NCBI GenBank assembly: GCA_025359915.1
Contig: JANYDE010000030.1
Span: forward strand, 1 to 61,653
Length of the DNA stretch: 61,653 nt
Reading direction: 5' to 3'
Source: Chamaesiphon sp. 336R_metabinner_41
Lineage (GTDB): Bacteria; Cyanobacteriota; Cyanobacteriia; Cyanobacteriales; Chamaesiphonaceae
The notes under the pieces: generated by a model
What the model saw: the letters and a program-made list of their open reading frames with translations, nothing else
The model's database searches: none
What the model was told of the DNA's origin: nothing
In this document: piece by piece, positions 49,798-61,517 of the stretch
How positions within the stretch are numbered: position 1 is the stretch's first letter
How the letters are laid out: every line of letters begins with the position of its first letter
Position numbers and translations under genes: made by a program

Positions 49798-52700
49798 TTA
49801 ATGGTCTAATTCTATCACTCGATCGAGTTCAGTTGCGAGCCAAGATCGATCGAAGATCGAGGCATAAATGCGATTTTGAACCCGTAGTAATTCTTGTTGC
49901 TTGACGACTAATCCTGACAACAGCAACTCCCGTTCAGCCGGAGTATTCGAGAGCGAGATTCCTAACTGCTCCAAGACTTGTTGATAGAGTGCGAGTAGGT
50001 GCGTCGATTGCTTACTTTTGAGCAATCGATCTCGAATAGTTTTGAGATGTTCTGGCTCATCTTGAGCCTCCCAATTGTTGATTATCTGCGTTTTGACTAA
50101 GTTTGCCAGCCATTCGGATTCACCATTGGGCGGAATGGGTGAGCAAGTGTTGCGAATCAGCTTACAGAGGCGTTGAGTGAGGAATGGTTGTCCGTTTGTC
50201 CAAGCCAAGACTTCTTTGAGAATTGTTTGGGGGTTGCCAAATTTCTGCGCCAAGCCTGGGAGCAATGGCTGGACTTCGTGCTCTTTAAAGCCTTCGAGGT
50301 GGATGGATTGACCGATATTAAATGGGGTAATCTGGATATTGGTAATTAATTCTGAGGGAGTCGCGACACCAAAGATGGCGAAGGTTAATCGTTGATAGGC
50401 GCGATTGAGACTGCGCTGGTTGTAACAGGAACGAATCAGGGCAAAAAAGTCATTGACGGAGAAATTTAAGCCCAAAACGCTATCAATTTCATCGATAAAA
50501 ATTACTAGTTGTGATGAGGAGTCGCCGACTTCTACTAGTAAGACTGATTCGATAAATTCACTCAACCGCTGGACGGGAGAGAGATCTAGCCGCTCTTGCC
50601 ACCAAGCTTTGAAATTAATCTTGCTGCGTAAATCAAACCGTCGCCCTAACTCAAACGCAATTCCTTTGTACCACTGATCGGGTGTAATATTCTCACTACC
50701 AATTCGGGTCATATCGATCGGTGCGCAATAGACTCCTTCATGCTGAAGATGATCGATCATTCTCACCATCAGGCTGGATTTGCCCATCTGACGGGGATTG
50801 AGGACATAGCAAAACTCGCCGCGTTTCAATGCTTTGTAGACCTGTCGATCGGCAGATCGTACTACATAGGTCGGGTCGTCCATTGGTAAACTGCCACCGA
50901 CTTGGTAGTCGAAGGTGGTAGCTGCTTCGGTACTTTTGAGTAGCTCATTTTCAAATAGTAGTTCGGTTTGAATGGCGGTGAGAATATCGAGGGTTTGAGA
51001 TAGTTCTTTTGTCCGTGCGGCTACTCTTTGCTCCAGTGTTTGGTTATAGCTTTCTAGTTTATTTTTAGCTCGTTCTAACTCAAGATTTTTTAAAGCGAGT
51101 TCTTCGCTAAACTTCACCAAATTTGCTTCCGCTTGTTTGCGTTGAGTGATGTCTTGAAATGCCGTCATTGCATAAACGACTTTACCCTTTTCATCAAAGA
51201 TTGGCATTCCCCACGATTCTGCGGGAATAATCTTGTCACCTACATGGATTTCAATATCATCAGTGCTTATCTCTTCACCATTCAGTGCTCTGACAATCGG
51301 CAATTTTTCGGAAGGGTAAACCAGGTTTGTTCCGGCGAGATAGAGTTGATAAGTTTCGGCTATTTGCTCACGGGTAGCCCCTTTGACGACTCCTTTCCCT
51401 AATAGATTCTCTGCTCTGTGATTAACATAATAAGGGCTACCACTGGCATCCAACACGCCAATCCCGATGGGCATCGCTTCCAGAAATTGAGTCAGCCTGA
51501 GCTGGTTTTCCCGTAATGATACATAAAGTTGGGCATTTTGGATGGAAATCGCCGCCTGAGAGGAGAGAAGTTTGAGCACTGCCAATCTTGCGGGGGTAAA
51601 GGTACAAGTTGTGAGGTTGTTTTCTAGGTACAAAATGCCGTTAAGCCTACCACCATCTAGCAGCGGTGTACAGAGAATTGATTTGGGGTGATTGGCGATA
51701 ATGTATGGATCGCGGATAAATTGCCCCTCATTGCTAGCATTATCTAGTACGATACTATCGTGAGTCCGAGCGACATAGTTGACAATTGCAGTTGACAAGG
51801 GGGCTGTTTGAGGCGAATCGATCGAGTCTGCTGAGATCGATCGTCGGATGGTAAGATCGAGATCGTCGGCAATCCCTTCAACTTCGATTTCCCAGTGGAT
51901 ATCTTCTGTTTCACTCTGGTATTGTAATAGTAAAAACCCTCTTTGAGCACCTGCATTTTCCATCACAGTTTTCATCAACTGTTCGAGCAATTTATCTAGC
52001 ACAATCTCACTCGAAATTGCCTGAAATGCCTCGATTACTGTGGCTAGATCTATCGATTCTGATGTTTGATTGGAAAGCGTGACCGAAGTATCGATCTTAC
52101 TAGTTTTAATGTCAGATGAAAGTTTGGCAATCGCTTGAAAATATCGAGATTCTAAATCTTTGACTTTGTGTACTGCTCCCCAAAGTTGATAACCTTGACT
52201 AGCTCTGTGGAAATAAATCTGGGCAAATTCTGCTTTGCCACGTTCTAACCAAAACTTCCCTGCTAGCTCATTAGCTAGAGCTTCATTCTGCAAAAAATCA
52301 TGCTTTTGAGCGGAAGCAATGGCTCGATCATACAAATCCATTGCTTCCTGGCATTGATCGGTAATTTGTGCCATTTCTGCTGCGACTAATAGGTGCTTAT
52401 GCAAGAAAGTTTCAGGACAATTATTTGCCCAAATTTGCATCTGGTTTTGATTTTCTATTAATTGCTGCCAATATTGTTGCTGCTGTCGATCTGACGCTGC
52501 ACTATACAGCATTGTGAGAATGAGTGAGTAGTAAAAATTATGTTCGGCGACGCAATACTGAGCAGCAATCAAAGTTAGCGAACTTTTTGCAGTGAGAATA
52601 CATTCAAGAGCTGCTGCTGTTTTACCATATAGATAGAGTACTTGAGCTTTGAAGATATAATAGATGCAAATTGCATGAGGAGAACGGCAACTATTTAGAT

Positions 52701-55700
52701 ATTCGGATTCATCAATTTCATCAGTCGAAAAAGCTAACTTGTCCTTGCTCATTCCTGCCAAATTTGACAAGGCTATCTGCACAGATCTAAGTATCTCAAG
52801 ACCTAAGCAATTTTGATGTTTTTTGCAAAAAATAGAGAAATTATTTGATTTTTCAAAGATCTGTTTGAGTGGCAAACCTTGATGAAAATCAGTGAATAAA
52901 ATATAGGCTAGGATATATCCAGTAAACTGAACTTCACCTGATTCTATCCCAGCTTTATAGCCATTTTGCAAAATAAGTTCAGTTGCTTTCAGTGGCTTCA
53001 TCCAACAGCTTAAATAATAGCCAAACACCATAGATGTTTGGCATTCTTGACTATGATTATTAAATTTCTTACTTAGATTTAAGGCAAGTAAACCAAACTC
53101 ATAAGCCGTTTGATAATCCGCCAAGATATTTATTGCGACAATACCATAACTAGAATAAAATTTTGATGCTTCAGCTAGATGACCATATTGAAGACAAAGA
53201 TTCATTTGTTTTGCGGCTGACAAGGCAAAAAGATTTGCACTTGTAATATAAGTAGCTGCATCCATTGCCGATAATATTTTGATAGCAGCTTTTTTAGATG
53301 AAATGATCATCTGTGGTTCATCGATCAATTCTGAAATTGTTCTGTTTTTCAATTTATCATTGATACCGATCATTTCTTTTTCTATTGCTAGTGGCAGATC
53401 TGTTTTAGGCATTTCAATACCTAGCAAAGCTAATCCTTTGTAACCAGCTTCAATCGCGGCTGTATATCTAGCATTGGTAGTAGCTAGAACGATCAATAGC
53501 TGATATAATTCTGCTTTCTCGATCGCCGAAATATTTCTTAATAGAGTTGAATCAATCAGACTTTCTGCTTGTGCAGAGTTACCATTCAAATATTCAACTT
53601 CAGCTAGTTTTTTGTGCAATTCAAAGAACAATCGATCTTCAGTCAAATCAGGAAGATAGCCTAATAGCTGTTTACCAATATTCAAATATTGTCGAGCTGA
53701 AATATAAGCTGTTGCATCTTTGGCTTTTTTGCCTGCGGCTAAATTCAATCGAACTAATGCTAATTTCTCATTCTCATCTTCAATTAGCTCTTGAGCCTGA
53801 TTTAGATGACCGACAATATCAAAAATTTTTTCGACTGTTCGAGCTGTTGGTGTATGCTGAAGTAATAACCTGCCAATTTGGAGATGAGCTACTTTTTGCT
53901 GTTGCTCATCAATGAGACTATCGGCAGCCTGCTGGATTTGATCGTGCCGAAATTTATAATTGAGGATGAGGATCTGAGCATCGATAGCTTCAGAGCCAAT
54001 GGTTTCCAGCTCAGAGGTAGGTACAATTACCCCTCGATCGATCGCTGGCAAAAGTGCTAAAAATGTTGCTTGTAGGGATTTTTCATGAATAATTGCTAGT
54101 GTATTGAGATCGAAACTATTGCCCACGCAAGCCGCCAAACTCAAAGCCTGTTGTGTTAGTTCTGGCAGTTGTTTTAAAGTGCTAATCATCAACTCGACGA
54201 CATTATCCGTGATGCCTTTTGTTTTGATTTTATCGACATCCCATTGCCAAATGCCTTGGCACCAATCAAAGCTGCATAAATTTTCGCGGTGCAATGTCTT
54301 TAAAAATTCATTTACAAAGAAGGGATTGCCCAAAGTTTTACCAACGATCAATTCAGCTAACGATCTAACTGTGCTTATTTCCTGAGACAAAGTATCGGCA
54401 ACTAGATGGGTAACTTCATCTAAATTTAATGAGTCTAAACTCATCTTGTTGATTTTAACACCCGCACTTTGTAGTGATTCGATTGCAATTATTAATGGAT
54501 GAAGTAGACTAACTTCATTGTCTCGATAAGCTCCAATCAAAAATAGATATTGACTCTGATCATCACTCATCATCAACTCAATCGATTTGAGACTGGCTAA
54601 ATCTGCCCATTGTAAATCATCGAGAAAAATAACTAAAGGATGATCTGCTTGACAAAATATCCGAACGAAGTTCTGAAATACTAAATTAAATCGATTTTGA
54701 TTGTCCGTTGACTCTAGCTGTTGTCCAGCTAATTGAGAGCCAATAATTAATTCAACTTCAGGAATAATATCAATAATTAGTTGAGCATTAGCCCCCAAAG
54801 CAGCTAATATTTTTTCTCGCCATTTTACTAATCGTGATTCACTTTCACTTAATAGCTGTTGGACTAACGATCTAAATGCCTGTACAATCGCTGAATAGGG
54901 AATGTCGCGCTGCAATTGGTCAAATTTGCCAGAGACAAAATATCCCCGCCGTTGAGTGATTGGTTTATAAATTTCCTGTACCAATGCTGATTTCCCAATC
55001 CCCGCAACACCAGCCACCAACATCATTTCAATCTTCGATTGGTTAAATTTCCCGTCCCCCTCTCCCCCCGTTGATACTCGCTCGAAAGCATTTAGTAAGG
55101 TGGCAATTTCTCGCTCTCTCCCATAGAGGTGTTGCGGGATTTGGAAATTTCCTGAAATATCCTGACTGGCGAGGGGAAACTCCACAATAGATCCAGTCAG
55201 CTCTAATTGACTCAGACATGCTTCTAAATCTACTTTTAGTCCAGAAGCACATTGATAACGTTCCTCCGCCGTCTTAGCCAATAGTTTCATCACTAGATTG
55301 GAGACAGCTTGCGGGATGGCTGGATTCAATTGGTGTGGCGGCGTGGGTAATCTGGCGAGATGACAATGGACTAATTCTAAAGCGTCAATTGTTTCAAATG
55401 GTAATCGATGAGTGAGGAGTTGATAAAATGTGACCCCAAGTGAATAAAAATCAGTGCGATAATCTAATGCTCGATTCATCCTCCCAGTTTGTTCTGGCGA
55501 CATATAGGCTAATGTACCTTCTAACACATTAGGATTTTTAATAGTGGTATTTTCACGCATAAATATCGTTGAAATACCAAAATCAATGATTTTTAGCTGC
55601 CCAGTTTCTGGATTGAAAATTAGATTAGATGGATTAATATCTTTGTGAATAATATTAGCACCATGGATCTCGATCAAGGTCGTAGTTATTTTAATCGCAA

Positions 55701-56022
55701 CAGTGAGAAATTCTGACAGGCTAAATTGTTTTGATTTTAGCAATATTGCTAAAGATGTACCACCAAAATCTTCGAGCAAAATCACCAGCGTATTTTGATA
55801 TTTTTGCAGGTCATATGCCCTAACAACTCCCGCTAATTCTAACGATTTTGTTATTTTATATTCTTGTTTATATCGAGTCAGCTCTATTGGTGTCGGGTAG
55901 TCTTGTTTTAAGATCTTCAAGATAACAGGTTGTCGATCGATCTGACTAATCGATCGATAAACCAGTGAATTGGCACTTTGATAAATCTGAGCTAAAATTT
56001 GGTAATTGGGAAATGTTAGCAT
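49798..56022 (-). CDS. Giant Ser/Thr kinase - AAA ATPase - GAF - PAS - AAA-like fusion
   Basis: About 2,074 residues from ATG 56022. Protein kinase domain (1-270): Lys37 (VILKIL), [13 protein letters not shown] with catalytic Asp129, and DFG at 148-150 are present, so kinase activity is possible. A large ATPase/sensor module follows (Walker [11 protein letters not shown] near 340; [10 protein letters not shown]), then about 700 helical residues of TPR-like repeats, a GAF domain near 1310-1480 ([20 protein letters not shown]), a PAS domain near 1510-1640 ([20 protein letters not shown]), a coiled coil, and a second ATPase of the AAA_35 type with P-loop [15 protein letters not shown] near 1745. 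Cyanobacterial relatives usually end in a histidine kinase; here the AAA-like module takes that place. Cytoplasmic. Its signal is unknown. Confidence 0.88.
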
Positions 56023-56252
56023 CACTATTTACTTCGATTGGTGTTTATTCTTTACTGTATATAAACAAATATCTTTGAGATGATGCGTAGATCTTTACCC
56101 CACCCTAGCCCTCCCCTTTCTAAGGGGAGGGAGCAAAGCCCCCCCTTTATAAGGGGGGGGTTGGGGGGGTAAGCCCACCGAAAACGAAGTCTAGCTGACT
56201 TGTGTATACACCGTAGTTTTGGAAGGAGAGTTGAGAGGGGTAAAATCTTCGC

Positions 56253-58501: not shown

Positions 58502-59962
58502 TTATTTTAACTGAAAAGAATTAATCATCGTCATTGCCGTTTCCAAGTGTTGATAATATCGAGCGGGTTCGGCTTTGTAGGTGAGGATATAAACCTTTCC
58601 TCGATCGATCGTCCATACTTCCAGCGTTTTAATTGGTAATAAATTTTCATTCTTCCCAGTGTATACCACCAAATTAGCCGGCTGTTTGGATAGAGTTGTC
58701 GAACTAGATTCAATAATTTTGGCAGCTAGATCGTATTTTTTGATTTCAGCAATTGCCAATTTTGTATAACTCGACAAAGTAGTCTGACTATCGGTCAAAT
58801 TTTCGATCCTAATTGAGATATTTTCTCGATATTTACCGGAGGAGATTTGGTTGGGACTATTAAAGATTGCAGTTTCTCCTGTCAAAATATTGTAAGCTTC
58901 TGCTTGCTCCCAATTATTTGCGTATTTTATGTTGACACCCGATATTTTGTCTACATATTGTTTCAGACCTAATCGGCTACTAATATTAGTCGATTGGGGA
59001 TCTACTGCTACTACCTTTGATGGTAATAATGGCGGTTGATTAGTCGATTGTGGAAGCAATTGTATCAATCCAAATCCAGTTAAGAGGACACAAGCAGCAC
59101 TACCAAAAATTAAATATGGATTGAATCGATGAGATTTACTGACAGGTATCTGCTCCAGTGCCAAAGATTGGAGATCTTGCAGTGCTTCCAATGCTGACTG
59201 GTATCGATTTCGATAATCAGGACGCACCATGCGATCGATAATTTTGATCGCTTTGTGGTCGATAGCTACCTCATCTTTCCATTTTAACTCATAACTATCG
59301 GGATCTCGATCGATCGGAAATTTACCAGTCAGAGCTTGGATGGCAATTGCTCCAACTGCATAAAGATCGCTATTAAATTGGGGCGCGTTTTGTGATTGTT
59401 CGTACGGAACATAACTATAATTAATCGGATCGGGCAAATAATTGTCGGAAATGTCCTCCCATTTATGCTCTAGATCTTTAATAGCACTAAATCCAATTAA
59501 ATGAAATCGACCATCTGCATTAGAGCGAATAATATTGTGAGGGTTAATATCCTGATGGATATATCTAAAACTATGGATGAAACATAAGATCCCGATTAAA
59601 TCCATCAAGAAATCAAATACTTGTGTCTGACTCCAAATTTCATCTGTGCTTAGTTCTTCAGCGATAAAGTTGCCATCGATATACTCGCGCACCAAATATC
59701 TATTTCCATTTTCCTCAAACTTGGCAACCAAAGAGGGGATTTGAGGATGCTGTCCGACTCGATAAGCAATCGATCCTTGGCTTTCAAATAGTTGCTCGAT
59801 CGATCGTGGAATCGAGCCATCATTATTCACATACTGGATTTCTTTGATAACATATAATGGAGAGTTAATTAAATCTAAATCTTCCGCTAAATAAGCAATC
59901 CCAGACTTGCCTAAACCTAAAACCTTAATTATTTTGTAATGAGAGTGCAGGATGTTTGACAT
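58502..59962 (-). CDS. Membrane Ser/Thr kinase-like protein lacking the DFG aspartate
   Basis: 486 residues from ATG 59962 (MSNILHSHYKIIKVLGLGKS). Kinase-like domain about 8-270: glycine loop GLGKSG (16-21), Lys40 (YVIKEI), HQD at 136-138 (RYIHQDINPHNII) in place of HRD, and GFS at 157-159 in place of DFG. The magnesium-binding Asp is therefore Gly, which predicts weak or no phosphotransfer. One membrane helix at about 284-305 (YLIFGSAACVLLTGFGLIQL) is followed by an outer part of about 180 residues (YVDKISGVNIKYANNWEQAE ... YYQHLETAMTMINSFQLK) with a PsbP/Mog1-like look. It probably senses something in the periplasm or lumen and signals by binding. Confidence 0.82.
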   Translation of the reverse strand: MSNILHSHYKIIKVLGLGKSGIAYLAEDLDLINSPLYVIKEIQYVNNDGSIPRSIEQLFESQGSIAYRVGQHPQIPSLVAKFEENGNRYLVREYIDGNFIAEELSTDEIWSQTQVFDFLMDLIGILCFIHSFRYIHQDINPHNIIRSNADGRFHLIGFSAIKDLEHKWEDISDNYLPDPINYSYVPYEQSQNAPQFNSDLYAVGAIAIQALTGKFPIDRDPDSYELKWKDEVAIDHKAIKIIDRMVRPDYRNRYQSALEALQDLQSLALEQIPVSKSHRFNPYLIFGSAACVLLTGFGLIQLLPQSTNQPPLLPSKVVAVDPQSTNISSRLGLKQYVDKISGVNIKYANNWEQAEAYNILTGETAIFNSPNQISSGKYRENISIRIENLTDSQTTLSSYTKLAIAEIKKYDLAAKIIESSSTTLSKQPANLVVYTGKNENLLPIKTLEVWTIDRGKVYILTYKAEPARYYQHLETAMTMINSFQLK

Positions 59963-60797: not shown

Positions 60798-61517
60798 TTG
60801 CGTCAAAATAATTTTACTACTCAGGTAGTTAATACCATCACAATTGCGGCTGCGGGAGTATTTACCAGCTACGTATTGTGGCTGATATTAATGCCAAATC
60901 CTAGTTCTATCGCCAAAACTATCACCGTCAGGATCGATGGTGCAAATACTGGTTCGGGGGTAATCATCGAACATCAAGGAGATCGATATGTTGTTTTGAG
61001 TAACTGGCATGTCGTCAGTACTGGCGATAAACCCCTACCGCCGAACTCACTGAAAATTGAGACTGTCGATCGACGCAAACATTTAATTTCGACTAAAAAG
61101 ATCCTCAGACTTGGTAAACTGGATCTGGCGATGTTAGAGTTCCGCAGTCGGTATCGTTATGCTACTGTTTCGATCGGCAATTCCGATAAACTGAGTGAAG
61201 GATCACAACTATATGTCTCTGGCTGGGCAGATCCTAGTCCTCAGCTACCAACCCGCACCTATCAGTATTTAGTTGGCAATCTGTCCGGAAAAATCGATCA
61301 TCCCCAAGCTGGTTATGCTCTAGTATACACAGTGAATGCCTTACCAGGGATGAGCGGCGGCCCAGTCCTCGACAGTCGAGGTAATTTAGTTGCCATCAAC
61401 GGTCGCGCCACGCTCGATTTACGCACTGGAAACGTAAATTTCGTACTTGGGATCGATATCAATCGTTACCTGCGTGCTAGGGGTAATTTACCCAGTCAAA
61501 AATGGCATAAGTATTAA
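60798..61517 (+). CDS. Trypsin-like serine protease, membrane-anchored
   Basis: 239 residues from TTG 60798, placed immediately after the COP23 stop codon. An N-terminal anchor (ITIAAAGVFTSYVLWLILMP, about 14-33) is followed by an S1-type protease domain with the triad His71 (SNWHVV), Asp109 (KLDLAMLEF) and Ser186 (LPGMSGGPV), all intact. GSGVIIEHQGDRYVVLSNWH and FVLGIDINRYL are standard. There is no PDZ domain. COP23 plus trypsin-like protease is a pairing I recall from other cyanobacteria; the protease likely acts in the periplasm. Confidence 0.88.
   Translation: MRQNNFTTQVVNTITIAAAGVFTSYVLWLILMPNPSSIAKTITVRIDGANTGSGVIIEHQGDRYVVLSNWHVVSTGDKPLPPNSLKIETVDRRKHLISTKKILRLGKLDLAMLEFRSRYRYATVSIGNSDKLSEGSQLYVSGWADPSPQLPTRTYQYLVGNLSGKIDHPQAGYALVYTVNALPGMSGGPVLDSRGNLVAINGRATLDLRTGNVNFVLGIDINRYLRARGNLPSQKWHKY

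Follow-up and report, generated by a model that had tools for sequence, protein, structure and literature searches.

By sequence definition, a kinase-fold protein is a pseudokinase when it has lost the β3 lysine, the HRD aspartate or the DFG aspartate, and the bacterial members of this class are largely unexplored by experiment (PMC12599244). The groups ActPs1-3, GLW, CP1, DYD and DLHK have degenerate bacterial Ser/Thr kinase domains, several of them with a transmembrane segment after the kinase domain, and EssB/YukC demonstrates that a membrane-anchored pseudokinase is a working design in bacteria (PMC12599244). In DFG-less proteins, retention of the G-loop and β3 motifs has been linked to activity (PMC2639636). 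Among eukaryotic proteins with glycine for the DFG aspartate, CASK and the plant protein ILK1, which both read GFG, transfer phosphate, and VRK3 and STRAD are experimentally inactive. The 2025 review of bacterial pseudokinases (PMC12599244) does not mention PsbP, and in the open-licence literature we found no description of a pseudokinase from Chamaesiphon or linked to PsbP.

Here we characterize a gene in a 61,653-nucleotide stretch of Chamaesiphon DNA (the window) that encodes a kinase-fold domain, a single transmembrane helix and a PsbP-fold domain (Table 1). A preliminary description, made from the sequence alone, had reported a membrane kinase-like protein with GFS in place of DFG and a PsbP-like domain outside the membrane; the reading frame, start, length and GFS codons all proved correct. 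The kinase domain is of the Hanks Ser/Thr type, with a Pkinase match of 63 bits (cut-off 31.7) and with E188, D199 and R253 in place, and in an AlphaFold2 model built from 30 sequences (mean pLDDT of 78 at full length; the PsbP part by itself reached 90.5) its fold is nearest to Staphylococcus aureus Stk1/PknB and Mycobacterium tuberculosis PknB by Foldseek. The outer domain belongs to the PsbP family by both Pfam match (30.2 bits, cut-off 23.5; 24 of 30 relatives also match) and fold, its best solved structures in Foldseek being CyanoP 2xb3 and 2lnj (TM 0.71 to 0.74; E of 1.7e-10 for 2xb3). The hydrophobic stretch between the two domains is at a position common to all relatives, and the architecture predicts that the kinase side lies inside and the PsbP side outside; together with the fold, this supports the earlier placement of a sensor domain beyond the membrane. 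CyanoP and PsbP of photosystem II share the outer-domain fold (TM about 0.67 to 0.74), with 13 to 19% identity in the best structural matches, but here the domain is C-terminal on a membrane anchor. A separate, ordinary PsbP-family gene is present in the genome (G000:C22, 205 bits), and the putative PsbP-fold sensor described here is probably something other than a standard subunit of photosystem II. A scan for promoters and terminators at the locus gave no usable signal.

Table 1. Features of the pseudokinase gene and its conserved neighbours (positions in the window)
Feature	Position	Strand	Basis or remark
Whole gene, 486 aa	58502..59962	-	ATG start at 59962, in line with the starts of relatives
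Ser/Thr kinase-fold domain, residues 9-261	59180..59938	-	Pfam PF00069; AlphaFold2/Foldseek match to PknB/Stk1
β3 Lys40	59843..59845	-	Invariant in 30/30 aligned proteins
Gln62 at αC Glu position	59777..59779	-	Position from alignment to S. aureus PknB
Catalytic loop HQDINPHN	59534..59557	-	Asn140 in place of the catalytic Lys; Asp138 and Asn143 retained
DFG replaced by GFS, residues 157-159 (GGA TTT AGT)	59486..59494	-	Alignment
Single transmembrane helix, residues 284-302	59057..59113	-	Hydropathy
PsbP-fold domain, residues 332-484	58511..58969	-	Pfam; Foldseek
COP23 protein, N-terminal signal-like segment	60267..60797	+	Pfam PF14218, 113.6 bits; divergent to the pseudokinase gene; conserved in Chamaesiphon
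Trypsin-like protease, N-terminal membrane anchor	60798..61517	+	Pfam PF13365, 68.7 bits; synteny

The closest relatives of this protein outside its family are cyanobacterial receptor kinases with the same kinase-transmembrane-PsbP architecture and length (for example, L009 to L016 and L039 to L052), which appear active, can be aligned end to end with it and share 30 to 37% identity. The preliminary description had proposed an alignment with relatives as a check, and had named a conserved aspartate in relatives combined with a sequencing error here as grounds for rejecting its reading. In our alignment the DFG aspartate is glycine in all eight full-length orthologs from the family (six Chamaesiphon and two from a sister genus) and aspartate in all 22 outgroup proteins, which share the architecture and come from other families of the order; this distribution, with Gly157 in close relatives and Asp in distant ones, indicates a single inherited loss. 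The protein thus qualifies as a pseudokinase under the sequence definition (PMC12599244), having a kinase fold without the DFG Asp. Among 31 aligned kinase domains from this genome it is the only one lacking that residue; an apparent loss in a second kinase (L054, "ELV") was a misalignment, and its sequence reads VLDFGIAL.

Further losses, which the preliminary description had overlooked, bring to four the positions missing from the complete catalytic set (Lys, αC Glu, HRDxKxxN and DFG). The αC glutamate, present in 22/22 outgroup proteins, is Gln, Tyr or Thr in the eight pseudokinases (Tyr or Thr in two of them), and the catalytic-loop lysine, present in 21/22, is replaced throughout the clade, although Asn at this position also occurs in one active-looking outgroup protein and is not diagnostic alone. 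The glycine of DFG, which all of the active-looking group retain along with the DFG Asp and αC Glu, is gone in seven of the eight orthologs (S159 here) and kept in one. R8 and G192 are likewise lost in the clade; this comparison covered the positions that 20 or more of the 22 outgroup proteins conserve. What is kept is nonetheless substantial. The earlier statement that Lys40 and the HxD aspartate are retained holds well beyond this one protein: the 486-residue product has Lys40, His136-x-Asp138 and Asn143, all eight orthologs share K40, H136, D138, N143, the APE glutamate E188, D199 and R253, and K40, D138 and N143 are invariant across all 30 proteins (8 plus 22). Altogether, 31 kinase-domain residues are conserved in all eight as they are in the outgroup, and the GxGxxG motif is intact in the six Chamaesiphon proteins and not intact in L009, L011 and L012, the active relatives closest to them. 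An aspartate six residues after the DFG position (Asp163; 59474-59476, minus strand) is fixed in all eight, the residue being Lys, Gln, Glu or Arg in active relatives, and it may provide a new contact or a replacement for the missing acid.

We searched 11 genomes of the family and found the gene at full length at eight of nine loci, in six Chamaesiphon genomes and both sister-genus genomes; a search of 291 genomes of the class with a sister-genus protein as the query (E of 1e-75) recovered no additional clade member. In a kinase-domain phylogeny of 43 proteins the eight pseudokinases form one clade with support of 100/99, whose stem is long at 0.46 changes per column, indicating that the catalytic loss happened once, and the ancestor of Chamaesiphon and its sister genus probably lost the αC Glu, the catalytic-loop Lys, the DFG Asp and, for the most part, the DFG Gly. 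Kinase-domain dN/dS was 0.11 (NG86) or 0.13 (YN00) between C. polymorphus and a genome with a complete chromosome (G006), and 0.06 (NG86) or 0.10 (YN00) for the sister-genus pair; these values, which range from 0.06 to 0.13 and cover two close pairs, are similar to that of an active pair (0.135, NG86) and are low enough to show that the domain is still under purifying selection. At equal PsbP divergence, kinase-domain identity in the clade was 7 to 13 percentage points below that of active pairs, few of which fell in the upper bin, so that the domain is constrained, but less so than a catalyst, as expected if the catalytic constraint has been lifted and some constraint remains.

The ninth locus (L084, G008:C293, 5302-6132) is a Chamaesiphon copy that has lost about 210 kinase-domain residues in frame, so that residue ~75 leads directly into the transmembrane helix; the helix and the PsbP domain both stay open. 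In this 77% complete genome the adjacent protease occupies two different frames, and the COP23 of the module is missing, the best match that remains being at 33%. This suggests that the module is decaying there as a whole, or else an assembly fault.

The preliminary description listed an FAD enzyme, COP23 and a protease as neighbours of the gene. The last two are conserved there and the first is not: the FAD enzyme did not recur beside the gene in the loci examined, and we rejected it as a partner. COP23 and the trypsin-like protease, which has His-Asp-Ser motifs, adjoin the pseudokinase gene in five Chamaesiphon genomes (this one and four others), and in the sixth (C. polymorphus) COP23 adjoins it and the contig ends there. 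Both sister-genus genomes encode a trypsin-TPR protein near the kinase: directly beside it in one, and ~2.5 kb off in the other, behind inserted open reading frames that include a TIR-like protein (L035, 3569-5834). A trypsin-like protease also lies within ~1.5 kb of 9 of the 22 active-looking outgroup genes, compared with none of 43 control kinases (13 from relatives and 30 from this genome), a contrast somewhat overstated because flanks were shorter around the own-genome controls. Neighbours were counted with a trypsin-only profile, as a TPR-containing profile gave false ones. With eight Trypsin_2 genes in 4.2 Mb of this genome, chance adjacency would be roughly 1% per locus. At two of these nine loci, from another family, COP23, a trypsin-like protease and a trypsin-TPR protein are arranged in tandem (L087, 3548-6496; L088, 3607-6686), convergent with an active-looking PsbP kinase, indicating that kinase and protease were already associated before the catalytic residues were lost. 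In other Chamaesiphon genomes, the protease gene is followed downstream by one for a membrane protein (L083, 5397-6083; L036, 3816-4493; L084, 4118-4849), with a weak match to Peptidase_M41 and, in L084, a visible HEAGH motif; the window ends before the place where this putative Peptidase_M41-like gene would lie.

We consider it probable that the gene encodes a lineage-specific transmembrane pseudokinase that relays an outside signal by binding and has kept part of its nucleotide pocket. As it is kept by selection without most of its phosphate-transfer residues, the protein probably signals by binding and not by phosphorylation, and phosphotransfer is unlikely because the αC Glu and the catalytic-loop Lys have both been lost. 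The ancestor would have been a cyanobacterial receptor kinase of the kinase-transmembrane-PsbP type, which may have given up its catalytic residues while keeping its fold with Lys40, Asp138 and Asn143 and, in Chamaesiphon, GxGxxG. The PsbP-fold domain would respond to a ligand or to the state of some protein in the envelope or lumen, possibly jointly with the adjacent membrane-anchored protease and exported COP23; the transmembrane helix would transmit the signal, and the inner domain would change its conformation or oligomeric state and bind a cytoplasmic partner, for example an active Ser/Thr kinase. As in STRAD, nucleotide binding that needs no metal could control whether the partner is bound. 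We regard as doubtful the more specific proposal of a phosphorylation-free, nucleotide-gated receptor whose PsbP-fold sensor is cut or controlled by the trypsin-like protease and coupled to a cytoplasmic partner; were it correct, the protein would be a bacterial counterpart of HER3-type receptor pseudokinases or of STRAD-type allosteric activators.

Several observations sit uneasily with a role in binding only. A pure binding domain would not need Asp138 and Asn143, and yet both are invariant; the G-loop and β3 motif, which are linked to activity in DFG-less proteins, are both kept; and most of the kinase domain has been deleted in one genome (G008). The invariance of K40, D138 and N143, the GxGxxG of all six Chamaesiphon proteins and the newly fixed Asp163 would suit an atypical active kinase that uses Lys40, Asp138, Asn143 and the glycine loop either without Mg2+, like the metal-free CASK, or with Mn2+, which Arabidopsis ILK1 prefers. 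These precedents, along with the DFG-less Titin, which is reported to be active with its G-loop and β3 motif kept, as is CASK (PMC2639636), keep such a kinase under consideration. We judge it rather unlikely, however, given that the losses extend to the αC Glu, which orders Lys40, to the catalytic-loop Lys and for the most part to the DFG Gly, and that, measured against the PsbP domain, evolution of the kinase domain is faster here than in active relatives.

That faster evolution, or drop in relative constraint, could be read as the kinase domain being a decaying relic, with the membrane helix and PsbP domain doing the work, and the in-frame fusion of the first ~75 residues to these parts in G008 would fit such decay. 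The low dN/dS in two pairs, the 31 residues conserved in all eight proteins as in the outgroup and the full-length gene at eight of nine loci make this improbable, and the broken protease and missing COP23 in G008 point to decay of a whole module there. Far more remote still is a sequencing or assembly error at Gly157 in an ordinary kinase, an explanation we reject because relatives share the glycine with different codons (GGA, GGC and GGT) in independent genomes, including a complete chromosome and C. polymorphus CCALA 037; further catalytic losses also accompany the substitution.

Among known proteins, CASK and ILK1 resemble the Chamaesiphon protein in having Gly for the DFG Asp with the HxD Asp kept, and CASK also in its β3 Lys and G-loop, but they are eukaryotic and have been shown to be active, and the Chamaesiphon protein is in addition missing the αC Glu, the catalytic-loop Lys and the DFG Gly. 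VRK3 and STRAD share the Gly and the loss of other catalytic residues, but they have also lost the HRD Asp that is kept here and are without an outer PsbP-type sensor. The classification underlying the 2025 review comprises 42 families (PMC12599244). As described there, the bacterial groups differ from this protein in lost motifs, domains and hosts: cyanobacterial CP1 has no transmembrane segment and carries a COG3899 ATPase, in contrast to the transmembrane helix and PsbP domain here; DLHK also has no transmembrane segment and has a degraded ATP-binding Lys motif, in contrast to the helix and Lys40 here; and the hallmarks stated for ActPs1-3, GLW and DYD, such as loss of the β3 Lys in ActPs2 and GLW, do not match it in a comparison by description (PMC12599244). 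It is well supported, under the sequence definition, that this is a conserved, lineage-specific pseudokinase.

Active-looking and degenerate forms of one receptor architecture occur in neighbouring cyanobacterial families, and the single loss together with a conserved gene partner provides a natural experiment in how the function of a receptor kinase is kept after catalysis has been given up. The trypsin-like protease and COP23 form a short list of candidate partners for the PsbP-fold sensor. Elsewhere in the window (49798-56025, minus strand) lies a gene for a 2,075-residue protein with a kinase domain, in which an 11-residue stretch is intact, ahead of large regions that are ATPase-like and sensor-like; the protein looks like the CP1-type architecture (PMC12599244). 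In four other kinase domains from this genome, Asn stands in place of the HRD Asp (HRN, HKN or HQN) and DFG is kept (L079, G000:C105; L066, G000:C51; L078, G000:C52; L077, G000:C110), and these are possible further candidate pseudokinases.
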